A DNA stretch of 40,734 bases from Pseudomonadota bacterium (lineage in GTDB: Bacteria > Pseudomonadota > Gammaproteobacteria > QQUJ01). The stretch is taken from assembly GCA_008501635.1 (NCBI GenBank), contig QQUJ01000002.1, positions 1 to 40,734 of the forward strand, given 5' to 3'. Below are positions 5,511 through 18,744 of the stretch, in pieces (within the stretch, counting starts at the first letter, position 1; every line of letters starts with the position of its first letter). The notes beneath the pieces are model-generated. The model was not told the origin of the DNA. It ran no database searches and saw only the letters and a list, made by a program, of their open reading frames with translations. The translations under genes and the position numbers were made by a program.

Positions 5511-7289
5511 TCAATCGGTTCGTCCATATTTCATAATCTTCTTTGGGGGTTCCAATTTTGTCACTACTAATGGCTCACTATGTATTTGCATCTCCTCATC
5601 TGATTTCTTCACCACTTGATTCTTGGCCCAATTAATATTGTCAGTCTGAGGGTAGTCTCGACGATATAAAGACCCTCTGCTTTCCTCTCTTTTTAGACTA
5701 GTTCTGCAAACCATCTCCATGATTGTCAGCATGCTTCCTAATTCATACGATTGAATCCATTCTCGATTATATATTCTGTCCTTGTTAATCGTGTGGATCT
5801 GAGGTAGATCTTCCTGACGGATTCGAATAATTTCTTTCAGCGCCTCCTGTAAACTGTTTCCATCCCGAATTACGCCAGCTTTTTCCCAAACCAATTGCTG
5901 CATATGTTTTCGAATGTCGACTTGTAGTAAACCGCTCTCACGTTCTAGGGGCGCAAATAGCTCTTGGCGTCTCTTTTCCACTTCTTCAACATCGATCGAC
6001 ATTTCACCCACTTGCTTGGCATAGTTGGCAGCAAACCGACCCGAACGATGTCCAAATACGATCATCTCTGTAAAAGCATTGCCGGATAGACGGTTGGCTC
6101 CATGAACGCCACCTGTGGCCTCTCCGGAGGCAAATAAACCGGGAAGACTAGTAGCACATTCTCCGTCTATTCGTATTCCCCCATTAAAGAAATGACTTGC
6201 GGGTACCGATTCAATCGCATCTTTCTTTAAATCGGGCAAATAGTCCTTCATGTTAAAACCACCATAGTATGGGTAGTATTCTGGGGGCAGCCAGGTTTCA
6301 AGATTGTCGATCAGATTATCTGGGAGATGTTTGAGGGACACATACACACCGCCGTGCTCACTACCCCTACCTGCCAATATTTCAGCCATGATAGCGACAG
6401 AAGCGATATCGCGTGTCGTCCATTCCATCCTCTCAGGATCCCAGTGACGCAAAAACCGATCACCCTTTTTATTCAGCAAGTGTCCACCAACACTACCTGC
6501 AGTCGAAAGAATAAAAGGTACATCCACTCCCTTTAGTGCTGGCGGCCATGGAAATGACCCAGGTAAAAACATCGGAAATTCCATTTCAACCATCTCCGCA
6601 CCAACCCGATAAGCCATTGCCCCTCCATCGCCTGTTAGTTCTTCCGGAGCAGTGGTATATGGATACATCCGCATAGCCCCACCGGTACATACAATTACCG
6701 CACCCGCCTTGAACGCGATGAATTCACCTGTTGCGGCATTTATACCGACCGCACCTATTACATGCTTACCGCTCGTTAGTAGATCGGTAACTACACAATT
6801 CGGTATTAACTGTACATCCGTAGCTAAAACAGCTTTACGCAGCCTTGGCATCAGTTTTGTGCCTGGAATTATCGTACCTCGGGGATACGAGTGACCGGAT
6901 GCCTGCGTCAAGCTGTCAATTTTTACTCCCCAATTCAATAAATCCTGTAAACGATCTGGCGCTTCATCCACGTGAATCTCTGCTAGCTTCTGATTGTTTA
7001 GAAACTTGCCCCCCTTGATCATGTCCTCGAAAAACTTATCCTTACTATCAGCAGGGTCCGCGTCCTTGAGCCCGAAACGATAGAACAAACTATTGCTATC
7101 GACATCTAAATCGGCATCACCGGTAACCGTTGCCCCACTCTTTCCGATATTAGTTCCCTTAGTGACCACCGTAACTTTTACACCATATTTAATAGCTTCC
7201 AAGGCTGCTGTGGCGCCGGCTCCTTCACTACCGATTATAAGGACATCGGTCTCAATCAATTTATCTACGACACTCTGTAATCGCGACAC
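5511..7289 (-). CDS. FAD-dependent oxidoreductase, fumarate reductase/succinate dehydrogenase flavoprotein family
   Basis: A protein of 592 residues with GTG start at 7289 preceded by AAGGAG at good spacing. The Rossmann motif VLIIGSEGAGATAALEA near residue 16 binds FAD. The second FAD region is GLFASGEATGGVHGANRLSGNAFTEMIVFG near 390–420. 'HWDPERMEWTTRDIASVAI' near 285–305 corresponds to the catalytic Arg region of the family. The His that links FAD covalently in SdhA (in SHTVAAQGG) is not present: the equivalent stretch is GKSGATVTGDADL, so FAD is probably bound non-covalently, as in NadB or AprA. Its partner is the small 2Fe-2S protein immediately downstream. Substrate unknown; fumarate/succinate-like acids or an amino acid are possible. 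No membrane anchor subunit is seen. Confidence 0.88.
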   Translation of the reverse strand: MSRLQSVVDKLIETDVLIIGSEGAGATAALEAIKYGVKVTVVTKGTNIGKSGATVTGDADLDVDSNSLFYRFGLKDADPADSKDKFFEDMIKGGKFLNNQKLAEIHVDEAPDRLQDLLNWGVKIDSLTQASGHSYPRGTIIPGTKLMPRLRKAVLATDVQLIPNCVVTDLLTSGKHVIGAVGINAATGEFIAFKAGAVIVCTGGAMRMYPYTTAPEELTGDGGAMAYRVGAEMVEMEFPMFLPGSFPWPPALKGVDVPFILSTAGSVGGHLLNKKGDRFLRHWDPERMEWTTRDIASVAIMAEILAGRGSEHGGVYVSLKHLPDNLIDNLETWLPPEYYPYYGGFNMKDYLPDLKKDAIESVPASHFFNGGIRIDGECATSLPGLFASGEATGGVHGANRLSGNAFTEMIVFGHRSGRFAANYAKQVGEMSIDVEEVEKRRQELFAPLERESGLLQVDIRKHMQQLVWEKAGVIRDGNSLQEALKEIIRIRQEDLPQIHTINKDRIYNREWIQSYELGSMLTIMEMVCRTSLKREESRGSLYRRDYPQTDNINWAKNQVVKKSDEEMQIHSEPLVVTKLEPPKKIMKYGRTD

Positions 7290-7337
7290 AGTATTCTCCT
7301 TATATTAATATTCAAACCCAGTGAATAATCAGCGAAT

Positions 7338-8444
7338 TTACTTGTCCTTATGCCGACCCTCCCGCTTCTCGGTAATGATCGCTAGCACCCGAGCCTGTGC
7401 GGTCAAACCTAAGGCATCCCTACAGTTACCGGAATGATGTAAAGCAGCCACACCCGCAGCGGCGGATGGCGTCGTTGTAACATTATGATTTTCAAGTAAC
7501 CGTACAGTCGCCTCACACTCCTCATCTGTTACCGTGACGAAGAAATCCGCATGCCGAGCTAATTCAGCAAGGGCCAAGTGTGAGGGTTCCTTGCAATCCA
7601 GACGCCCCATCGTAGAGTGAGGCCCCCGTGCCTTAACCGGTGCTCCACTGCAGATACTGTCGATAAGTGCTGGTGCAGCTTCTGGCTCGACAATGACAAT
7701 GACCGGTTCATTGCCCCATCGTTTTCGGAATAGAATGGTCATTGCTGCCGCCATACCACCTACCCCCGCCTGCAAAAAAATATACTGGGGGGGAAGCGAT
7801 ATCTGATCGACAATCTCTGCTCCCATAACGAGATACCCCTCCATAACTCGCGTGGGTAATTCCACATTGCCAGGCCATGAGGAATCGGAGAGTAGAATCC
7901 ATTTATGTCGTTCGGCATCAGCAACAGCGACAGCCATACTGGCTTCATAGTCGTTCCCAGCACGAACCACTTCCGCACCCATACAACGCAAGCGTTCAGC
8001 GAAATCCTCCGGTACTGTGTGACTAAGATAGACGACCGCTTTAGCACCGAAAACACGGGCTCCTGCTGCCACCGACAGCCCGTGGTTTCCTGCGCTAGCG
8101 CAGGCAAATACCGTTCCTCTCAGAATCTCTTTAATCTGATCGTGGTCTATTGGTGAATCTGGATCATCTACTTGAGAGAATGCTTGCCGCGCGATGACGT
8201 AAGCGGCCCCCAATGCTTTAAAGTTGCCCAGGCCCATCCGCTCTCTTTCATCCTTGAGATAAATCATGCCAACCCCAAGTGCACCAGCAAGACCAAGTAT
8301 CTCAAGCAAGGGGGTAGGCTTAGCACATGGGCATAGCCGTAGTAGGTTCAGCGGCTCAGATGGGTCGTCAATTAAACGCCCTTCAGCTAAACCCGCCTGA
8401 GGTGAAAAACCCTTATGACGTAATGGGTTGCGTAATACGCGCAT
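7338..8444 (-). CDS. PLP-dependent lyase of the diaminopropionate ammonia-lyase family
   Basis: A fold-type II PLP enzyme of 368 residues. Lys76 in GLGNFKALGAAYV is the predicted Schiff-base lysine, at nearly the same position as in E. coli YgeX (Lys77, from memory). LQAGVGGMAAAM supplies the phosphate-binding glycine loop, and 'GRLDCKEPSHLALAEL' resembles the family's GLACGEPNPLGWEIL block. Where YgeX has TTDGNHG this protein has ASAGNHG, so the Asp linked to the D-isomer reaction is missing, whereas the Asp of 'SDSSWPG' that serves the L-isomer (YgeX 'QDTAWEG') is kept. It likely deaminates an L-2,3-diaminopropionate-like or beta-substituted amino acid to a 2-keto acid and ammonia. It is the first gene of the operon; a threonine/serine dehydratase role is the alternative. 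Confidence 0.85.
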   Translation of the reverse strand: MRVLRNPLRHKGFSPQAGLAEGRLIDDPSEPLNLLRLCPCAKPTPLLEILGLAGALGVGMIYLKDERERMGLGNFKALGAAYVIARQAFSQVDDPDSPIDHDQIKEILRGTVFACASAGNHGLSVAAGARVFGAKAVVYLSHTVPEDFAERLRCMGAEVVRAGNDYEASMAVAVADAERHKWILLSDSSWPGNVELPTRVMEGYLVMGAEIVDQISLPPQYIFLQAGVGGMAAAMTILFRKRWGNEPVIVIVEPEAAPALIDSICSGAPVKARGPHSTMGRLDCKEPSHLALAELARHADFFVTVTDEECEATVRLLENHNVTTTPSAAAGVAALHHSGNCRDALGLTAQARVLAIITEKREGRHKDK

Positions 8445-8567
8445 AGCCGCTTACACCTAAACTTAACGTATTACGGAGGTTAGCAATCGACTGTGTTATT
8501 TTCTTGTGATGTTGGTTGTTATCGTTTAATTTTATTGCAAAAGTTTAACGACAAGTGAGGTTTAAAA
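8445..8567. promoter_or_regulatory. Divergent control region between the lyase operon and the Lrp-type regulator
   Basis: This 123-bp AT-rich stretch must carry the promoters of both the minus-strand operon and the plus-strand regulator gene. An exact inverted repeat, cgtaatacg at 8431–8439 (inside the first codons of the lyase) and cgtattacg at 8467–8475, has a spacing of 27 bp, with another cgtaat at 8419–8424. Such phased repeats would fit binding of an Lrp/AsnC octamer over the operon start. Promoter hexamers are not clear enough to name. Confidence 0.4.
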
Positions 8568-9050
8568 TTGCGTGCGTGCAAGCTCGATAGAATTGACAGA
8601 CAACTGCTAGATCTTCTTCAGGGTGATGCAAGCCAATCTTTGGACACTCTGGCTGGGAAGGTTGCCCTATCAGCACCCGCTATACAGCGCAGGATCAAGC
8701 GAATGCGTGATGATAGTGTGATCGTGCGCGATACTATAGAGATAAATCCGGCAGCTGTCGGATTACCGATGACCTTTATCGTAATCGTCGAGCTGGTTCG
8801 AGAAAATTCCGATCAAATTGCTGCATTTGCCCGTAAAGCAGCCGATGAGGATCTGGTACAGCAATGCTACTACGTTACAGGAGAGGGCGATTTCGTGCTT
8901 ATCGTGTTGGCACAGGATATGAGCAATTTCGAGGCGCTAACAAAGCGTCTATTCTTTAGTGACCCGAATGTCCGCCGTTTTAAAACTCTCGTCGTAATGG
9001 GCAAACCCCACAGGTCACTCTGGGTACCCTGCAGCCAGGTGACCGAGTAG
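8568..9050 (+). CDS. Lrp/AsnC-family transcriptional regulator
   Basis: A protein of 160 residues. LDRIDRQLLDLLQGDASQSLDTLAGKVALSAPAIQRRIKRMRDD at the start is the AsnC-type winged helix-turn-helix, and the C-terminal RAM/AsnC ligand domain includes 'VQQCYYVTGEGDFVLIVLAQDMSNFEAL', the usual Y-V-T-G-x-x-D-x-x-L motif. The start is TTG at 8568 with GTGAGG about 8 bases upstream. Members sense amino acids and often sit divergently from the amino-acid degradation genes they control. Here the lyase gene starts 124 bp away in the opposite direction, so this is most likely the operon's own activator or repressor, responding to the imported amino acid. Confidence 0.92.
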   Translation: MRACKLDRIDRQLLDLLQGDASQSLDTLAGKVALSAPAIQRRIKRMRDDSVIVRDTIEINPAAVGLPMTFIVIVELVRENSDQIAAFARKAADEDLVQQCYYVTGEGDFVLIVLAQDMSNFEALTKRLFFSDPNVRRFKTLVVMGKPHRSLWVPCSQVTE

Positions 9051-9642
9051 ATTATAGTGTATTGACCCAGTCGAAATGACGGGCAGTAAAACTGCATTTT
9101 CATACTATGAATTGGCGAAGCGCTTAATCCCATCATGATCTCTGGCAGTTAATTTCCCTTCATCTCACTCTCCACTTCTTCACTCAGCAAGCGCTGCACC
9201 AAATCAGCGTGCTCTTCCCCTACTTCCATGCCGCGTATCAAATTCATGGGTTATCCCAAATACGGGTTCTACCCTGATTTCACGGACACTTCAAAAAAGC
9301 CCGATAATGGGTAAAAAGGAGTGTTCGTCAGGCACAGACAACGCGCGCTCACCACCAGTTCCACCTGGGGCAATCTGGCTTTGAACACGTCAAAGTAGGG
9401 CTACTATATATCGCATCAGATTCCTTAAAGCTCTGCGGCGCGTTCCGGCGCCAGGAAATCGAAGAACACTTTCTGCGCCTGCTGGGTGCGATTTTCCTCG
9501 CGCCACAGCAGCCATCTGCTCAACAGATCGTGGCATTGGTTACGTAGACATAGCAGTGCTTGCACGAGGTCTCGTCGATATTGATGTTGTTCACGCCCTC
9601 CAGGTAACGAGGCATGTAGGGTTTTGGAGGAAACGTGGCTGC
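9051..9642. other. Degraded intergenic DNA with short coding remnants
   Basis: No intact gene is seen. On the minus strand, a 31-codon frame (about 9246 to 9151) reads MNLIRGMEVGEEHADLVQRL and so on, and an open stretch ending in TAA at 9425–9427 reads RWLLWREENRTQQAQKVFF on its way to the stop. Both look like ends of proteins without a beginning. I could not assign either to a family. Position next to transposase relics suggests that they are residues of genes broken by insertions. Confidence 0.35.
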
Positions 9643-9765
9643 TTGCTGAAGTTCAGTACAGCCGTCGATACCACGATCATTGCCGCCCCGCCCTCGATCA
9701 AGAACGCCGAGCAAGCGCACACCCTGGAGATGCGCTAAACACGTAAGGGCTCAGCCGTAGATTAG
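9643..9765 (+). pseudogene. IS5-family transposase remnant
   Basis: The frame from 9643 reads LLKFSTAVDTTIIAAPPSIKN, then AEQAHTLEMR, a stop, TRKGSAVD and another stop. This matches the IS5-family core 'G-T-x-VDATIIAAPSSTKN-x-x-x-ARDPEMHQTRKGNQW', which contains the first catalytic Asp region. Two in-frame stops and truncation on both sides show it is dead. It joins directly to an IS256-type piece at about 9771, so one element inserted into or recombined with another. Confidence 0.75.
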
Positions 9766-9770
9766 GCGTT

Positions 9771-10023
9771 GGCGAGGGGCACAAGGAGGACAAATCCAGC
9801 TGGCTGGACTTTCTGAAGCAGTGGAAAGCGGCCGGTTTACACGGAGTGTAGCTCATTGTTTTCGATGCCCGCCTAAGCTTGGTTGAGGCGCTCGCGAAGA
9901 TATTTCCCGACGCCGACTGGCAGCGCTGCTTCGGTCCATTTCTTTCACAATGTGTGCTCCCACGTGCCCGCGGGCAAGGTCCGTGAGATGGTCGGTGTAT
10001 TCCCCGGCGGTCATCGGTGCTGA
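9771..10023 (+). pseudogene. IS256 (Mutator-like)-family transposase remnant, frameshifted
   Basis: The plus strand reads GEGHKEDKSSWLDFLKQWKA, then AGLHGV, a stop, LIVFDARLSLVEALAKIFPD and ADWQRC. A shift of frame then gives VHFFHNVCSHVPAGKVREMV before a stop at 10021–10023. This is the central region of IS256-family transposases: SxWxxFLxxLxxRGLxGVxLIVSDAHxGL with catalytic Asp, and then WQRCxxHFxxNxxxxVPxxK. One stop plus one frameshift within 85 codons mean the gene is inactive, and both ends are missing. Confidence 0.8.
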
Positions 10024-10432
10024 TGCTGATAGCTGCTCGACCGCACCATATATCAGGTACCGCGCGGGGCACTTGCAAGCACATGAATACAAGACTGCTT
10101 GATGAGACGGACCAAGAGGCGACCTACTCAGCAGCCTTGTGAGCAACCAGAGCCACCCCCCACGGAAATGCACAATAGTTTTTTGACACTGCCAACAGCT
10201 TTTCATCGGGACGGTCGGCAGGAGTTACAGGTACGCAACCGGGGGCGCTAGTTCATGCTCGCGAAGCAGAACCTTTAAATCCCACCACTTCAGCACGCTT
10301 TTCTACACCTCTGTTGAACACTCGTCCACGGATCAGGAACTGTTCCCGCATCACTCCCGCCACCACTGGAATCTGGCACTCTACAATGAAAGAATCTATT
10401 TGCGCCTGTGACATGATCAATCCCGAACTGCC
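10024..10432. other. Intergenic region with one short minus-strand frame
   Basis: There is no recognisable gene in these 409 bp. On the minus strand, an ATG at 10414 opens a 53-residue frame to 10253 that starts MSQAQIDSFIVECQIPVVAG. It begins 19 bp after the MFS transporter stop and is in the same direction, so it could be a small last gene of that unit, but it has no clear ribosome site and no family resemblance. I regard it as unproven. Confidence 0.25.
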
Positions 10433-11671
10433 TTACGTCCCACGCCTTTCACGAAACACCGACCACCAATACCAAAGCGCCATTGTGAGCTGAAGAACAA
10501 TCATCATACCGAAACTTGCGTGGTACGCGGCCGGCTCATAGCCCCCTCCCGGACGCACAGGCCACAATCCGATCACGCCTCCCATACCCCACTGGGCAAC
10601 GAAGGCAACCACGAATACCAGCAGATTGACCGCGGTATTGACGCGACCCGCCAAAGCCCTTGGGAAGGCTTGCGACAACGCAGCATAACTCAGTATGCCA
10701 GTGGTCCCCATGAAGCCGAACAGCATCCACAGGGGCACGGTCCACGCGACCGGCAGGAACAACAACATTATCTGAACACAGATAAACAGGCTCATGCCTG
10801 TGGCCGCTACGGTGGCGGTGCGAATGCCCCGTCGATTAAGCCGCATCGTGAACGCACCCCATGTAATAAAACCGGCCACCATCGCCGCTGCGATTAGAAA
10901 CAGCACGTTGGCCGCATCGCCGCGCTCCATACCGGCGATATCACGTAACCAGGGTCCGGCCCACAGGCTCTGGATAGAGTGGAAACTGGCCTGTGCGAGC
11001 ACCGCCAATGGCGCGATACGCCAAAATGCCGCACTGGTAAAGACTTGGGCTACCCCCCGTATCTGCCCCCGCAGGCTCGATTTCGGGGGCTCCTCCGGGC
11101 GGTCGGGTACGACAAACCAGACGACCGCCGCGACAATCACACTCAACGCCGCTAACAAAAGAAACAAGCCACGCCAATCTGTGACTTGAAGCAACACTTG
11201 AACTGGTGCTGTAGCGCTCAACGCCCCCAAACCGCCTGCCGCCATCTGTACCCCGTTGGCCAGCGGCAAACGATTCGCGGGCAGCCAGTCGACAAAGGCC
11301 TTGAAGGGTGCCATCAGACACGCGGAGACGCCAAACCCGATCAAACCGCGTCCAATTACCAGGCCTAGCGTGCTTTCGGAAAGCGCAAAGATCAGCGCCC
11401 CGGCGCCCGCAAACAGTAACAGAATACCTTCGATCCGGCGCGGACCCATGCGATCGAGCATGACACCCAATGGTAGTTGAAACATCGCAAAGGTCAGGAA
11501 ATAGGCAGAGGTCAGCAGGCCGAGATCGGCAGGGCTGAGGCCCAATTCCCGGGTCAGGTCGGGCGCGATGACCGCATTGACCACCCGGAACAGGTACGAG
11601 AGGAAATAGCCCAGTGCGAAGGGAACAAACAGGCGCAACAGGATCGTCTTGCCAATCGGAGAATCTGCCAC
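10433..11671 (-). CDS. Major facilitator superfamily (MFS) transporter
   Basis: About 412 residues from GTG 11671 and twelve hydrophobic segments. The MFS signature between helices 2 and 3 reads 'GVMLDRMGPRRIEG' (the G-x-x-x-D-R-x-G-x-R-R motif), and 'GFGVSACLMAPFKAFVDWLP' follows in helix 4, a form seen in nitrate/sugar-phosphate-like and anion-cation symporter branches. It is an inner-membrane importer or exporter; the substrate cannot be read from the sequence. A GTG at 11707 would add 12 residues, but lies inside an inverted repeat (gcggcac/gtgccgc, 11701–11727) and has no ribosome site, whereas GGGAGG sits 12 bases before 11671. The gene follows the CBS-domain gene on the same strand. 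Confidence 0.85.
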   Translation of the reverse strand: MADSPIGKTILLRLFVPFALGYFLSYLFRVVNAVIAPDLTRELGLSPADLGLLTSAYFLTFAMFQLPLGVMLDRMGPRRIEGILLLFAGAGALIFALSESTLGLVIGRGLIGFGVSACLMAPFKAFVDWLPANRLPLANGVQMAAGGLGALSATAPVQVLLQVTDWRGLFLLLAALSVIVAAVVWFVVPDRPEEPPKSSLRGQIRGVAQVFTSAAFWRIAPLAVLAQASFHSIQSLWAGPWLRDIAGMERGDAANVLFLIAAAMVAGFITWGAFTMRLNRRGIRTATVAATGMSLFICVQIMLLFLPVAWTVPLWMLFGFMGTTGILSYAALSQAFPRALAGRVNTAVNLLVFVVAFVAQWGMGGVIGLWPVRPGGGYEPAAYHASFGMMIVLQLTMALWYWWSVFRERRGT

Positions 11672-12472: not shown

Positions 12473-14473
12473 ATGATAAACAGAACCTGGGCGGGTCTTG
12501 CGGCCACGCTCTTTGCCTTTATTCTCGCACCACCCAACAGCGCCGACGCCAGTGAATGGCAGCCCCGTCTGGAGCCGGTGTCCGGTGCTCAATTCCGCGG
12601 CCCCTCCACACCCTTTGAAATCTATATCCCTCCCGAGGCACCCGCAGAGAGCCTGCCAAGGCTGGCGCTCGAGCTCGATACCATCGACGTCACCGGATTC
12701 ATCGACAACAAACGCGCGCCCATCTATGTATTCCAGCCGGTACAGGCATTGAGCTTTGGTCCACACCAATTGCGTCTGGTGGAGTACACACCGGACGGCG
12801 ACATCATCGAGCGGGCGGTATGGGATGTGGAGGTGCGCAAGAGCAAAGCCTTTCGCGAAGCAGCGCTCGGGATAAACGGTAATCTGAGCCTTATTCGCCG
12901 GGTGGCCGATGACGACAGCACTTCGCTGCCCGACAAGGACACCGCCACCGGCTCGCTGGCGCTGGATGCCCGGGTCGCCAACGGAGATTGGCGCGGCACC
13001 GCCTATATCCCGCTGATGTTCGATGAAGCCGCAACCGAGCGCAAAGGCGAGGTGGGCGATTTCCTCTTCACCAGCACTCAGGGACCGGTGGTCGTCCAGG
13101 CGGGACATCACGCCATACCCTCCGACAGCCTGGTCGCCAGCGGTGTTTACAACCGCGGCATATCCGCCACGGCGTCAACGGCAGACCAGGGGCAAAACGT
13201 GACGGGATTCATCATGCGTTCGTCACCCATCAGCGGTGCCCGTGAGGGCCTGGGTGTGGGCGATTCGGATGATCGCGTCAATGGCGTGGTCTGGACCGGA
13301 TACCCGGTGCGTGCCGACGGACGCTATGTCGAGTTGTCGGCCGTCTATGTGGACGGCGAGGGACCTGCGGACGGTTCATCGGTCGTGGGTGATCCCACGA
13401 TCACAGGTGGCAAAGCGTGGAGTCTCCGTGCCGACGCCGGCTGGAATAATAATCGTTTCCGGCTGCGCGGCGAGTACGCCGGCTCGGAATATGACTTCGA
13501 CGGCGACGGTGGTTACGATCCGGAAAAAGACAACGCCGTCACCGCGCTTTTCTCCTACCGCCCCTGGGAACAGAAGTACGTCGACGATCAACCTATGGAC
13601 CTGAGTTTCAACATCGAACATCGCAGGATCGGTCCCTTTTTCACCACCCCGGCGGGTCAGGCACCGACGACAGACCGGGATATGATCCGCGGCTTTGTCA
13701 ACTTCAGTTGGGCGGCGCTGCGTATCGATACCAGCCTCTCCCAGGAAGAGACCAACGTTGATGGCAACAGTCTGTTGCCCACCGACCAGACGGACATCGC
13801 ATCGGCCTCGATCAACTACTCGCCGCTACCGTCGGACGACCCAGAGAAGCCCTACGGCATCTGGGGCCAGCAGAACTATCGACTCACCTTGACCAATCAG
13901 CAGGATGAAACCAAGGTTCTGCCGGCAGGCTACGGCGGCAGCGGGAATGACAGCACCACCGATACCTTGAGCATCGGTGCAGACTTCCTGCACGAACGCT
14001 GGAGCTGGGGGATAGCGCATGACCTGATCGAATACGAGGATGTCACCAATTTCAATCCCGACACCCGCGATACCCAGACCCAACTCCAGGCCACCTTCAA
14101 TATCAGCGACACCTTCTCGCTTTCACCTCGTGTTCAGGTTGGGCGTTTAAGATACGAAGACACCGGAGTGGTCACGCGGGAACGCATTGCAGGCGTCAAT
14201 CTCAACTACAACCCCACGGATCGCTGGAGCACCCACCTGAGTGTGGACGTGAACCGCAGCAAGGTCTCAGACGACTCAGCCAATACCGAAACCCAAACGG
14301 TCACGGCAGGAGTCACCTGGACCGCGATTCCGCCTAAAACGAACCGGCCGGGCGTAACGCTGACAATTGATGGGAGCAAGACCGACACGACGGACAATAT
14401 CGACCCCACTCTCTCGACCGATACCTATCAGGTCTTTTTCAGAGTGAACGTCGGTTGGTCTGCGCTCTACTAG
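12473..14473 (+). CDS. Predicted outer-membrane beta-barrel protein of the sigma/protease module
   Basis: A protein of 666 residues with a signal peptide (MINRTWAGLAATLFAFILA, cleavage near NSADA-SEW). Residues about 28–130 look like a beta-sandwich domain, and from about 140 on the sequence has alternating hydrophobic strands and Asp/Gly/Asn-rich turns typical of a transmembrane barrel, ending in 'YQVFFRVNVGWSALY' with an aromatic last residue as barrel proteins have. I do not recognise a named family. A strong AGAAGGAAG ribosome site precedes the ATG. It is the first plus-strand gene, 14 bp from the next, and lies in the group with a sigma factor, anti-sigma factor and exported protease; a surface sensor or secretion role is inference. 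Confidence 0.7.
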   Translation: MINRTWAGLAATLFAFILAPPNSADASEWQPRLEPVSGAQFRGPSTPFEIYIPPEAPAESLPRLALELDTIDVTGFIDNKRAPIYVFQPVQALSFGPHQLRLVEYTPDGDIIERAVWDVEVRKSKAFREAALGINGNLSLIRRVADDDSTSLPDKDTATGSLALDARVANGDWRGTAYIPLMFDEAATERKGEVGDFLFTSTQGPVVVQAGHHAIPSDSLVASGVYNRGISATASTADQGQNVTGFIMRSSPISGAREGLGVGDSDDRVNGVVWTGYPVRADGRYVELSAVYVDGEGPADGSSVVGDPTITGGKAWSLRADAGWNNNRFRLRGEYAGSEYDFDGDGGYDPEKDNAVTALFSYRPWEQKYVDDQPMDLSFNIEHRRIGPFFTTPAGQAPTTDRDMIRGFVNFSWAALRIDTSLSQEETNVDGNSLLPTDQTDIASASINYSPLPSDDPEKPYGIWGQQNYRLTLTNQQDETKVLPAGYGGSGNDSTTDTLSIGADFLHERWSWGIAHDLIEYEDVTNFNPDTRDTQTQLQATFNISDTFSLSPRVQVGRLRYEDTGVVTRERIAGVNLNYNPTDRWSTHLSVDVNRSKVSDDSANTETQTVTAGVTWTAIPPKTNRPGVTLTIDGSKTDTTDNIDPTLSTDTYQVFFRVNVGWSALY

Positions 14474-14486
14474 GGGATTGAGGATC

Positions 14487-15656
14487 ATGACAAAACTAAC
14501 CAGGGATTTAGCATCCATTGCGACTGCTGTGCTCCTGTTGCTTGTAAGTACAGCGGCGTCGGCAACGTTTTCGGGTGGGGTCACCATCGTGCCCGCATCA
14601 ACAAAAGCCGCGATCGGTCGATCGTCAAGCGTCACCATTCGCTGGAGCGCGACCACCAATGACGGACCATTCGTTCAGTCGACAACAGGGACTTTCAGGA
14701 TCCCCAACGGGTCAACCCTGGGCATCGTATCGAGAACCCTCACCACCAGCGCCGTTAGCGTCCCTGTCACTGTCACGCTGAACGAGCAACTGCTCATTCC
14801 CAGCAATGTCATCTTCGCGGCGTTCAAGGCGGGTGTGTCGCGCATCGAGTACGTGCGAGATTTCGAAGATGGCGACGGCCCTTTCGCAGCAGTACAAGGC
14901 GTTTTTCTTATCGACCTCACCAGCCCCTCGGCCGCCGCCTTCGGGATCGGCCGTTTGGCGCTGAGCTTCGAGGATGGCGCCATAGAGAAGATCGCCGAAG
15001 AGGAGCAGTTTCTTCGCGCCAAGGCCGACATCTCGCACACCGGCTCCGGCGTTATCCGCGGTGTCTGGGAGGCTGCCGATCCAACGAGCACGGCCGGGAC
15101 CCCTATCTATCGGCCTTTGACTCAGGTACGCGAATTCCTCTCAGCCGGCGGTGATAAAACGCTGTTCAGCCCGCGCCTGCCCACGAGCAGCACCGGGCTG
15201 CACCTGGTGAGATTCCGATTGACCGATCCGGCGCTGTTCGATACCGACCCGGTCATCCGCTACTTCGTGCAACCGCGGCCCGCACCGCTCGAACCCATCG
15301 GGTTGGTCATGCCGCCCCATCTGTCACTGCTTGGCAACGACACCCGGTTTACGTGGCAACCGATCGCCGGCGTACGCGCCTATCAGCTGGAGCTCTTTGA
15401 GCAGGGTCTACCGATTGAATTACCGGCCGACACGGCTCCGGTCGATGAGCCACGCGCCATCGATCCGCGTCCCGGTTCGTCCATCTCCCCCACCACGGGT
15501 TTGCTGGTGCCGGGCGATCAGTCCGCAGTACCGCTGACCACCCTGGCGCGTACCCATCTGATGTCGGGTCGAACCTATCTATGGCGTGTACTGGCAATCG
15601 GCTCCGAGGGCACCGTAATTGGCGAAAGCCCACTGCGGGCGATCCGCGTCCCCTAG
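14487..15656 (+). CDS. Secreted beta-rich protein of unknown function
   Basis: A protein of 389 residues with a clear signal peptide (MTKLTRDLASIATAVLLLLV, cleavage near TAASA-TFSGG). The mature part has mostly strand-forming sequence, with no Cys and no membrane segment, so it is probably periplasmic or outer-surface. The last 120 residues (for instance 'TRFTWQPIAGVRAYQLELFEQG' and 'LMSGRTYLWRVLAIGSEG') have the W-x-P-x-x-G-x-x-x-Y-x-L-x-L pattern of fibronectin-III-like domains. ATG 14487 was chosen, with GAGG just upstream; a TTG at 14478 would add three residues. It lies between the barrel gene and the sigma factor gene and is likely part of the same transcription unit. Confidence 0.75.
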   Translation: MTKLTRDLASIATAVLLLLVSTAASATFSGGVTIVPASTKAAIGRSSSVTIRWSATTNDGPFVQSTTGTFRIPNGSTLGIVSRTLTTSAVSVPVTVTLNEQLLIPSNVIFAAFKAGVSRIEYVRDFEDGDGPFAAVQGVFLIDLTSPSAAAFGIGRLALSFEDGAIEKIAEEEQFLRAKADISHTGSGVIRGVWEAADPTSTAGTPIYRPLTQVREFLSAGGDKTLFSPRLPTSSTGLHLVRFRLTDPALFDTDPVIRYFVQPRPAPLEPIGLVMPPHLSLLGNDTRFTWQPIAGVRAYQLELFEQGLPIELPADTAPVDEPRAIDPRPGSSISPTTGLLVPGDQSAVPLTTLARTHLMSGRTYLWRVLAIGSEGTVIGESPLRAIRVP

Positions 15657-15689
15657 GGCGCGGATCCGACCACCGGTTTCCGAAGGCAC

Positions 15690-16247
15690 ATGCAGCCGCC
15701 GCCGACCGAGCCCGAACTCAGCGAGCTCCTCGACAAGATCGCCCGCGGCGACCAGCGGGCGCTCGAGCGTTTCTATTACCTGTTTCAGCATCGCGTCTAC
15801 GCCTACGCCCAGGCTCGCCTGGGCGATCCGCATCTGTCGGCCGAGATCATCAATGAGGTGATGATGGAGGTCTGGAAATCTGCTGGGCGATTCGAAGGGC
15901 GGTCCAAGGTGCAGACCTGGTTGCTGGGCATCGCACACCACAAGGTGGTCGACCGTTTGCGCAAAAAACCCGGTCCCGAGGTCGTGGAGCTGGATGACCA
16001 GCTGACCGACGATGGCGACGTCGGTATTGAGCGGGCACTGGCAGGCGTGGAAGACGCCGAGCGTCTGCAACACTGCCTGGACGGACTCTCTGACGAACAT
16101 CGCCAGGTGATGCACCTCGCTTTCGTTGAAGATCTCCCCTACGGCGAGATCGCCGAGGTTGCCGGGGTCCCGGTGGGGACTGTCAAGACCCGAATGTTTC
16201 ATGCCCGCAAACTGCTGAAACTCTGTTTAGGCGCAACCGGCTTGTAA
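15690..16247 (+). CDS. ECF-type RNA polymerase sigma factor
   Basis: A sigma-70-family protein of 185 residues with just regions 2 and 4. Region 2 (about 22–92) includes 'ALERFYYLFQHRVYAYAQARLGDPHLSAEIINEVMMEVWKSAGRFEGRSKVQTWLLGIAHHKVVDRLRK', where the -10 recognition segment is seen. Region 4 (about 125–178) ends with the helix-turn-helix 'LPYGEIAEVAGVPVGTVKTRMFHARKLL' that reads the -35. These factors are held at the membrane by an anti-sigma factor until an envelope signal arrives. The anti-sigma gene follows after 90 bp. It probably activates its own module, and perhaps other genes; I could not identify the promoter motif it uses. Confidence 0.95.
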   Translation: MQPPPTEPELSELLDKIARGDQRALERFYYLFQHRVYAYAQARLGDPHLSAEIINEVMMEVWKSAGRFEGRSKVQTWLLGIAHHKVVDRLRKKPGPEVVELDDQLTDDGDVGIERALAGVEDAERLQHCLDGLSDEHRQVMHLAFVEDLPYGEIAEVAGVPVGTVKTRMFHARKLLKLCLGATGL

Positions 16248-16337
16248 ATTGCCGGAAAACTGAACGGAAGATGAACCAGCACCGTCAAATCTACGACTCA
16301 AGGGATAGCCAAACGCCAACCAGACGAAGTAAAGCCG

Positions 16338-16943
16338 ATGCCAACGCCTGACAACAATCGTCGCGAAATCGAAAATCTGCTGCCTGCCTATGTCAACGGC
16401 ACCTTAAGCGACGCGGAGTGCCGCAAGGTCGATGAGTACATCACCCAACATCCGGAGGTTCGCTCCGAGCTCGAGTGGTTGAAGGCTTTGCGCAGCGGCA
16501 TGAAAACCCTGCCTACCGGCAATGCGCCGGGAGAAATGGGCTGGCAACGCCTGCGCCGCGAACTCCGCAGTGAGACCGAAACCGGTAGCCCCTCGCGTGG
16601 TTCGGCCTGGTGGAAACCGGCGGTGGCTGCTGCGGCGGTGATTATCATTGTGCAAGCGGCCTTGTTGGCCGGGATGGGTCCGAAAGATGAGCGCTTCCAA
16701 CCCCTGTCCGGGTCAGCCGGCCAGGACAACGTTATCCAGATCCAATTTCATCCGGGCGCCACTGAACTGCAGATCCGCACGCTGCTGAACAGCATCGACG
16801 CCCAGGTGGTAGCCGGTCCCGGCGCGCTCGGGCTTTATCGAATCCAGGTTGATTCACCCGAGCCCTCCCCACAGGCGCTACAGCAGGCGCTCGACAGGCT
16901 CCGTGAACACGGCGACGTGGTGATCCATGCCAGTACTGATTAG
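16338..16943 (+). CDS. Single-pass membrane anti-sigma factor with protease-prodomain-like periplasmic part
   Basis: A protein of 201 residues. Residues 8–50 ('REIENLLPAYVNGTLSDAECRKVDEYI') match the anti-sigma domain of the RskA/ChrR group. The zinc-binding His-x3-Cys-x2-Cys is absent: only one Cys is present, so this is a zinc-free type. Residues 94–113 form one membrane helix. Residues 131–198 form a compact alpha/beta domain ('NVIQIQFHPGATELQIRTLL', 'GALGLYRIQVDSPEPSPQAL') resembling subtilase pro-domains. It should sequester the sigma factor encoded upstream and put this domain into the periplasm. Its stop overlaps the protease start by 17 bp, suggesting coupled translation and a shared job. 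Confidence 0.88.
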   Translation: MPTPDNNRREIENLLPAYVNGTLSDAECRKVDEYITQHPEVRSELEWLKALRSGMKTLPTGNAPGEMGWQRLRRELRSETETGSPSRGSAWWKPAVAAAAVIIIVQAALLAGMGPKDERFQPLSGSAGQDNVIQIQFHPGATELQIRTLLNSIDAQVVAGPGALGLYRIQVDSPEPSPQALQQALDRLREHGDVVIHASTD

Positions 16944-18744
16944 AAAGCGTCGCGTACGCGCTGCGTTTTGTTCGGCACCTCTCCTGCTGATCCTGACAAC
17001 GGGAGCAGCTTTTGCGGCGCCACCTTCGACATCCCCCCAAATAACATTGCCGTCACCCAGCGTTTCGCGCGGATTCGGCACCTTCGTGATTACCATTCCA
17101 ATCATCAGCGGTTTCACCCCCGCAACCTGCATCAGCAAGGGGGGCAGTGTCACCATCCAGGGCAAGCATTTCGGCAATCAGTCGGGCAAAGGCGTCGCAC
17201 TGGGCGGGCACGGGATTCACGTCGATGCACAGATACTGAGTTGGAGCGATGCCTCCATCACCGTGCGCATTCCTAACGATCCCAAGATTCAACTGAACCA
17301 GTGGTATTACCTGGGTATCGAGCAGGCCAATCATGGCAAGTGGTTGAGCAATATCAACAAGAACATCACCATTTGCGCCTCTGCGCCCCTCGCCGCTCCC
17401 AAACTCACGCTGCCCATGCCGGGTACGCCCAGCGGACCTGCTATTGTCCTTCCGCCGGCGGGATCGGGCGCCTCCGCGCAACCACCTCCGGAATCGACCC
17501 CAGCGCCCGAGTACGGCGGCGAGTGGCCGGGCGAAAGCGGCTATCCCGGCGATTCCGGATACTACGGAGACAGCGGCGGCCTCCCACAACCCTCCTATGG
17601 CAGCCTGCTCAGTTCGCCACTGCCACCGGTACCGCAAGTGCCGCCGGTCGCGCCGGAAGCAGAGAAATCCGACATCGAGCCGGCAGAGGTGGTCATCATT
17701 CACAGCAGTCCTGATGAGGCCCGTCAGTTCGCTGAGACCGCAAGAGGTATGGGTCTCTCCATAAAACGCCGGCGCACACTGAAGGGCCTAGGTCTGGTGG
17801 TCAGTGTCGTGCGCCTGCCCGTCGGCATGACGGTCAGCGACGCGTTGCTGCAGCTACGCGGCCAGCTGCCCGATCTATGGGCCGACGCCAATCACCGGTT
17901 TACCCTGCAAGCGGATGCAGACCCCAAGTCCTACGCCTTGCGCATGATGGGATGGGATGGTCAGGGCGTTTCCTGCAATACACCGATCCGCATAGGGATG
18001 ATCGATACCACGGTGACGAACCAACACCCCGTCTTGCAGGGAGCACAGATCACCCAGAAATCGTTTCTGCCGTCCGGTATCGAGCCTGCGCCCCCGCGCC
18101 ACGGAACCGCGGTTGCAGCCCTTTTGGTCGCGCAAGGAGAGCACGAGGCCATGGCAGGGTTGGTGCCTGCCGCCCAACTCTTCGTGGCGGGCGTTTTTCG
18201 CGGCCGCGACGATGCGCTGGACACCTCGGCGGAGCGGATTGCATACGCACTCGACTGGCTGTTGGAACAACGGGTTTCCACGATCAATCTGAGCCTCGGC
18301 GGACCCCGCAATTTGCTGGTGGAAGCGGCGCTGCACCGTGTCATGCAGACGGGCGTGGTAGTCGTGGCCGCCGCCGGCAATGGGGGGGCGAAGGGCGCAC
18401 CTGTTTACCCGGCCGCGCAGCAGGGAGTGATCGCAGTGACCGCCATCGATGCCGATGCCCGCCTCTACCGGAACGCGACGCACGGCGACTATGTGGTGTT
18501 CAGCGCCCCCGGGGTGGATGTGTGGAGCGCCGACGCCAGGGGTGGCGGTGCCTACTTTTCCGGAACCTCCTACGCCACGCCATTTGTCACGGCCGCTCTC
18601 GCTACGCGCATCACGCGAATGGCACCCGCCGCGGTGATCGAAGCCCAGAAAAAATCGGTTATCGATTTGGGAACACCCGGACGCGACCCCGAATATGGTT
18701 GGGGGCTGATTCAGAGCGCCGGTCGTTGCCCATCGTCTTCCTGA
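16927..18744 (+). CDS. Exported S8 (subtilisin-like) serine protease
   Basis: A protein of 605 residues. A signal peptide (1–30, ending GAAFA) precedes an IPT/TIG-like fold (about 58–150, with 'GGSVTIQGKHFG' and 'SWSDASITVRIP'), a Pro/Gly/Tyr-rich linker (about 151–250), a pro-domain-like segment (253–325) and the subtilisin domain (about 335–600). The catalytic triad is complete: Asp360 in RIGMIDTTV, His392 in RHGTAVAALL, Ser548 in SGTSYATPFV. The oxyanion Asn485 lies in AAAGNGG. Thus it should be active in the periplasm or outside the cell. The start overlaps the anti-sigma gene. It may cleave the anti-sigma domain or the neighbouring barrel or secreted proteins; this is inference. Confidence 0.92.
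   Translation: MPVLIRKRRVRAAFCSAPLLLILTTGAAFAAPPSTSPQITLPSPSVSRGFGTFVITIPIISGFTPATCISKGGSVTIQGKHFGNQSGKGVALGGHGIHVDAQILSWSDASITVRIPNDPKIQLNQWYYLGIEQANHGKWLSNINKNITICASAPLAAPKLTLPMPGTPSGPAIVLPPAGSGASAQPPPESTPAPEYGGEWPGESGYPGDSGYYGDSGGLPQPSYGSLLSSPLPPVPQVPPVAPEAEKSDIEPAEVVIIHSSPDEARQFAETARGMGLSIKRRRTLKGLGLVVSVVRLPVGMTVSDALLQLRGQLPDLWADANHRFTLQADADPKSYALRMMGWDGQGVSCNTPIRIGMIDTTVTNQHPVLQGAQITQKSFLPSGIEPAPPRHGTAVAALLVAQGEHEAMAGLVPAAQLFVAGVFRGRDDALDTSAERIAYALDWLLEQRVSTINLSLGGPRNLLVEAALHRVMQTGVVVVAAAGNGGAKGAPVYPAAQQGVIAVTAIDADARLYRNATHGDYVVFSAPGVDVWSADARGGGAYFSGTSYATPFVTAALATRITRMAPAAVIEAQKKSVIDLGTPGRDPEYGWGLIQSAGRCPSSS

Follow-up and report, generated by a model that had tools for sequence, protein, structure and literature searches.

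Five open reading frames on the plus strand were confirmed at positions 12473-18744 of the window, by which the whole analysed stretch of 40,734 nucleotides is meant. They encode a probable outer-membrane protein (OMP), an exported protein (SEC), an ECF-type sigma factor (SIG), an anti-sigma factor (ASF) and a subtilase (S8), separated by about 14, 33, 90 and -17 bp (Table 1); positions and tight spacing agree with those given in the original prediction. The likely start of SEC is an ATG near 14487, leaving a gap of 13-14 bp after OMP. Signal peptides at the N-termini of OMP, SEC and S8 were judged by eye.

Table 1. Coordinates of the five genes and their predicted domains in the window, and of neighbouring genes at related loci (L numbers)
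Feature	Coordinates	Strand	Description and basis
OMP	12473..14473	+	666 aa; signal peptide, N-terminal Ig-like region, probable outer-membrane beta barrel
SEC	14478..15656	+	392 aa from TTG; exported; three Ig-like beta-sandwich domains
SIG	15690..16247	+	185 aa ECF-type sigma factor; Sigma70_r2, Sigma70_r4_2 and TIGR02937 over cut-off
ASF	16338..16943	+	anti-sigma factor; cytoplasmic ASD/zf-HC2 fold at residues 4-57, TM helix at ~93-112, periplasmic domain at 130-201
ASF, cytoplasmic sigma-binding part (predicted)	16338..16620	+	RslA ASD 3hug_F, Z 7.6, residues 6-63
ASF, periplasmic prodomain-like (I9 / Fervidolysin_NPro-like) domain (predicted)	16725..16940	+	AlphaFold, Foldseek, Pfam match of orthologue L091
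S8	16927..18744	+	exported subtilase, 605 aa; Pfam and catalytic-residue alignment
S8, prodomain-like segment	17686..17913	+	profile match to prodomain segments of short S8 proteins, probability 90.6
Gcw_chp neighbour genes	L125:6538-7287; L129:5844-6587; L186:7499-8251; L182:3693-4484		
Peptidase_C14 genes	L057:11111-12478; L197:4450-5256; L198:3341-4915; L199:1876-3444		

SIG contains regions 2 (E 1.7e-13) and 4 (E 5.6e-14) of sigma-70 factors only. A zf-HC2 anti-sigma domain (E 8.9e-5, above the cut-off) and a single transmembrane (TM) helix are present in ASF, the N-terminal ASD fold of which matches the anti-sigma domain of RslA, while the H..C..C zinc ligands kept by most homologues are lost from ASF of the window (16338-16500). 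By these domain matches ASF is assigned to class-I (ASD) membrane anti-sigma factors and paired with SIG; a sigma factor with its membrane anti-sigma factor had been proposed at this place.

S8 is represented by a signal peptide, an IPT/TIG domain (Pfam, E 1.1e-5), a Gly/Pro-rich linker, a prodomain-like segment (residues ~254-329) and a Peptidase_S8 catalytic domain (E 8.7e-26, residues ~350-600). Alignment with subtilisin BPN' and S8 homologues shows D360, H392 and S548 of the catalytic triad to be intact, as is the oxyanion Asn. Judged by these features, S8 is an exported, active-looking subtilase, in line with the exported subtilisin expected at this place. The nearest NCBIfam models, mycosin and QhpE, each scored far under the cut-off. 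S8 is the sole Peptidase_S8 found in the genome to which the window belongs, and the same genome gave a strong match to M50, the RseP-type site-2 protease (E 2.8e-73).

The AlphaFold model of SEC (mean pLDDT 82.7) comprises three beta sandwiches of the Ig-like type after a signal helix, which bears out the secreted beta-rich protein of the original prediction; no family match was found for SEC, and the fold search gave generic Ig/FN3-type matches only. For OMP, proposed to be an outer-membrane barrel, the match to OMP_b-brl lies below the curated cut-off (E 3.9e-4), and support for the barrel from models is weak. Homologues of OMP are 24-34% identical in an alignment of 11 sequences. No motif above shuffled sequences was found upstream of nine OMP genes, and a scan for sigma-70 promoters gave matches at chance level.

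Distribution of the five-gene set and of its sigma-ASF-S8 part

When 274 genomes of the class were searched with the anti-sigma factor as bait, and 369 genomes with SEC, the order OMP-SEC-SIG-ASF-S8 was found in five genomes (G063, G196, G093, G146 and G345), as well as in an Acidiferrobacterales MAG (L161) and in G721 (L184). The set is truncated by contig ends in G178, G258, G034 and G186, and S8 of G196 likewise leaves its contig; altogether, about 10 further gammaproteobacterial genomes carry the full or contig-truncated set with the order kept. Several families, although diverged to 24-50% identity of their proteins, have the same gene order, and the arrangement is therefore not due to chance. 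No close relative from the window's own family and genus was present among the genomes searched; a direct search of genome contigs with the ASF sequence alone gave no relatives, and a search of plasmids with ASF gave none.

OMP-SEC pairs without sigma were found at two loci of G226 and in G109, and SIG-ASF-S8 alone in G001. By this distribution OMP-SEC is a pair separate from the conserved sigma-ASF-S8 core, so that of the five-gene module proposed originally the ECF/anti-sigma/subtilase part is conserved, while OMP-SEC also occurs without sigma. Pairs without sigma or protease were observed at L087, L088 and L090, with additional copies of the first domain of SEC in L088 and L090. At L092, a diverged OMP-SEC pair is followed by an open frame of more than 1,800 aa (6075-11621) that begins with SEC-like domains. 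Two five-gene loci encode similar exported proteins without a Pfam match, divergent upstream of OMP (L050:7047-8360 and L089:4309-5517). Genes of Gcw_chp (TorF-like) outer-membrane proteins adjoin several sigma-ASF-S8 units without OMP-SEC (Table 1).

It could be supposed that ASF senses how far OMP-SEC has been folded or assembled, and that S8 is a quality-control protease for this pair. The position of OMP-SEC directly upstream in the five-gene form, and the Gcw_chp proteins often adjoining other forms, would agree with such a role; it is nevertheless improbable, as most sigma-ASF-S8 loci are without OMP-SEC, and G226 and G109 carry the pair without sigma.

A search with the anti-sigma profile revealed the same kind of ASF in many more families, almost always in a SIG-ASF-S8 unit. 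On this evidence the conserved core is sigma-ASF-S8, which is far wider than the five-gene form and extends across Gamma- and Alphaproteobacteria; L190 is an example of an alphaproteobacterial unit whose ASF is of the prodomain-like type. Among ASFs with the prodomain-like periplasmic domain described below, S8 is in the unit at 22 of the 27 loci that could be evaluated in the first survey and at 17/20 loci in a second sample, taken from the phylum, versus an adjoining S8 at 0/23 loci of control ASFs from the same class, in which only the N-terminal part matches. The Fisher p-values versus controls, ~1e-9 and 3e-9, are indicative only, because loci of the same family are non-independent and two ectodomains were judged by eye (L198, and L155, which was moved from the controls to the prodomain-like set after such a reading, its C-terminal model score being below the threshold). 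In both surveys pooled, 47 prodomain-like ASF loci include 39 with S8 and 4 with a C14 protease, and the association of ASF with S8 spans ~20 families. The neighbours of the sigma factor are thus not random among relatives, since its association with ASF and S8 recurs in two separate surveys, and a conserved envelope-linked ECF/anti-sigma/subtilase module is well supported.

Exceptions are eight. At four of them (L057, L197, L198 and L199), an exported gene of the caspase family C14 adjoins ASF or lies near it and apparently replaces S8 (Table 1). The other four are without a protease: L133, and the three records L056, L058 and L124 of a single orthologous locus. In G090 and G313 (L058 and L124), the prodomain-like ASF adjoins dapB and dnaJ/dnaK, yet no Peptidase_S8 was detectable in the genome.

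The search started from S8 gave 20 loci, and in 15 of ~18 evaluable ones an ECF sigma factor adjoins. About five of these loci are of the five-gene form, some being genomes already met in the bait searches. At the remaining loci (Alteromonas, Roseibium, Paracoccus, Desulfobacula and others) the anti-sigma factor is different, or none was clearly seen; outside the five-gene form S8 is often divergent. In the co-variation test S8 tracks sigma, and co-variation of the ASF ectodomain with S8 beyond the operon was not significant (partial Mantel, partial r 0.13, p 0.11).

A short form of S8, of about 375-430 aa, was observed in the SIG-ASF-S8 units of L125, L126, L128, L129, L131, L134 and L135. 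Asp, His and Ser are kept in these proteins, the oxyanion-hole Asn is absent in the alignment, and several have a lipobox by eye; without this Asn, the short forms may be slow or specialised.

The periplasmic domain of the anti-sigma factor

In the AlphaFold run on 28 ASFs, residues 130-201 of ASF were modelled as a beta-alpha-beta-beta-alpha-beta domain with pLDDT of 90-97 (about 95). Of 350,542 PDB chains compared with this ectodomain by Foldseek, the prodomain of PC1/3 matched best, followed by two chains of the prodomain-bearing EpiP; subtilisin propeptides and POIA1 stood lower in the list, and none of the matches reaches E 0.001. VIA-align gave Z of about 7 to 8 against prodomains, but unrelated ferredoxin-like domains reach tied Z, and the fold alone is therefore not proof of kinship with prodomains. 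The Pfam model Fervidolysin_NPro-like (PF22148) matches 7/28 ASFs, one of them over the cut-off, namely the orthologue from the five-gene cluster L091 (25.1 bits versus a cut-off of 21.0); ASF of the window has no match to PF22148 or to another curated prodomain model. Profile-profile comparison of ASF ectodomains with the prodomain segments of the S8 proteins themselves gave weak matches, with a probability of at most 20. The ectodomain of ASF is predicted to have the fold of a subtilase prodomain.

The fold is shared with the prodomains and I9 domains of subtilisin propeptide, PC1/3, POIA1 and fervidolysin, whereas in ASF the domain is fused to a TM helix and an anti-sigma domain. Type-1 ectodomains stop directly after the last strand, without a clear C-terminal active-site tail, and seem not long enough to occupy the active site in the manner of a propeptide tail. 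Inhibitors of the I9 type such as POIA1 have the same fold, and the genes of ASF and S8 adjoin, usually overlapping or nearly so. The ectodomain might accordingly be regarded as an inhibitor or chaperone that restrains periplasmic S8 and guards the cell from leaked protease, with sigma control as a side effect. Such a function is very unlikely: S8 carries its own prodomain-like segment, the TM and sigma-binding parts would be superfluous for a stoichiometric inhibitor, and caspase-like proteases replace S8 at four loci.

In the open-access literature, no anti-sigma factor with a prodomain-like ectodomain and no OMP-SEC-SIG-ASF-S8 unit were found described; the main paper on ECF reclassification is outside this scope, and an earlier mention there is possible. 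Protease neighbours of ECF sigma factors are already known, and what is new here is the prodomain-like fold predicted for the periplasmic domain of ASF.

Known systems and the possible role of S8 in sigma release

A dedicated subtilisin beside an ECF pair had been considered unusual, which was not upheld, as such a protease recurs in Gamma- and Alphaproteobacteria. A protease neighbour of the sigma factor has been noted for ECF26, to which RpoE6-EcfR6 of S. meliloti belongs, and S8 protease SMa0142, divergent from rpoE6, has been shown by experiment to be among the most prominent targets of RpoE6 (PMC6180224). In ECF54 neighbourhoods, subtilase and CHAT (caspase-like) proteins have been reported (PMC8999054), similar to the loci studied here, although that group is described as having no anti-sigma factor, unlike the sigma factor of the window.

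The S8 protein next to rpoE6-ecfR6 is 36% identical to S8 of the window over residues 254-605, which include the prodomain segment and the catalytic domain; its identification as SMa0142 is by place beside the ECF/anti-sigma pair on pSymA, the sequence record being unannotated. Both systems have an ECF sigma factor and a membrane anti-sigma factor adjoining homologous S8. However, S8 of the window is co-directional, downstream and last in the operon, while SMa0142 is divergent, and RpoE6-EcfR6 has no OMP-SEC pair and its anti-sigma ectodomain no match to the prodomain-like profile.

In E. coli, the site-1 protease DegS belongs to the HtrA family, is encoded elsewhere and is activated by C-termini of OMPs. 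Similar to the RpoE-RseA-DegS-RseP system, a membrane anti-sigma factor with a periplasmic domain and an M50 (RseP-type) protease are present here, and regulated proteolysis is the proposed route of release; the E. coli system differs in the absence of a subtilase and in its anti-sigma ectodomain.

Gene order across genomes shows a sigma factor, a single-TM anti-sigma factor and an exported, active-looking subtilase to be a conserved genetic unit, here with the OMP-SEC pair. In this unit S8 may act as a trigger or feedback input on ASF as well as an output, although this reading is tentative. SIG would drive its own operon, and S8, OMP and SEC would therefore be made when SIG is active. To the exported subtilase the ASF ectodomain would offer a docking domain or one resembling an inhibitor; free mature S8 would engage and eventually cleave ASF as the site-1 step, after which RseP would complete the breakdown of ASF, releasing sigma. 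As both an output and a feedback input, S8 would be tuned to the state of OMP/SEC envelope assembly.

Such a role of S8 is favoured by the occurrence of the prodomain-like ectodomain with S8 (22/27 and 17/20 loci, versus 0/23 controls), by the prodomains at the head of the Foldseek list, by the matches of 7/28 ASFs to Fervidolysin_NPro-like, by the lone Peptidase_S8 in the genome and by the strong M50 match; the caspase-like protease of four exceptions looks as if the ectodomain accompanies a protease partner. Against it stand ASF without S8 in G090 and G313, the pairing of related S8 proteins with a different anti-sigma ectodomain, the lack of specific co-variation, the weak prodomain profile match, the common ferredoxin-like fold, the lack of a conserved promoter motif and the short C-terminus of type-1 ectodomains.

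It is also quite conceivable, though short of probable, that S8 is an output only. S8, the barrel and the secreted protein would then be the sigma regulon, S8 cutting substrates in the envelope or outside the cell, with SEC or OMP perhaps among them, and having no role in sigma release, while the opening of ASF would be left to general proteases or to a different signal. The prominence of the homologous SMa0142 among RpoE6 targets (PMC6180224), the S8 proteins with unrelated anti-sigma ectodomains and the ASF type without S8 in two genomes agree with an output; what it leaves unexplained is that the prodomain-like ectodomain predicts an adjacent protease (39 S8 and 4 C14 of 47, versus 0/23). 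The output and the trigger or feedback roles are compatible, and S8 may serve as both.

The strongest form of the trigger or feedback reading, that a subtilase prodomain has been turned into the periplasmic sensor of a class of membrane anti-sigma factors, and that the subtilase (sometimes the caspase-like protease) of the same operon directly controls sigma release, is rather doubtful. The same claim, and the same doubt, is expressed by calling the unit a self-contained protease-gated ECF switch.

Many ECF systems have, to our knowledge, no known signal and no known site-1 protease. Should the ectodomain bind the adjoining subtilase, it would give a testable trigger for dozens of uncharacterised ECF pairs of Gamma- and Alphaproteobacteria, as well as a ready biochemical assay with one soluble domain of 70 residues and one protease. 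Even if S8 is an output only, the association defines an ECF-protease unit with testable natural substrates, perhaps OMP-SEC.
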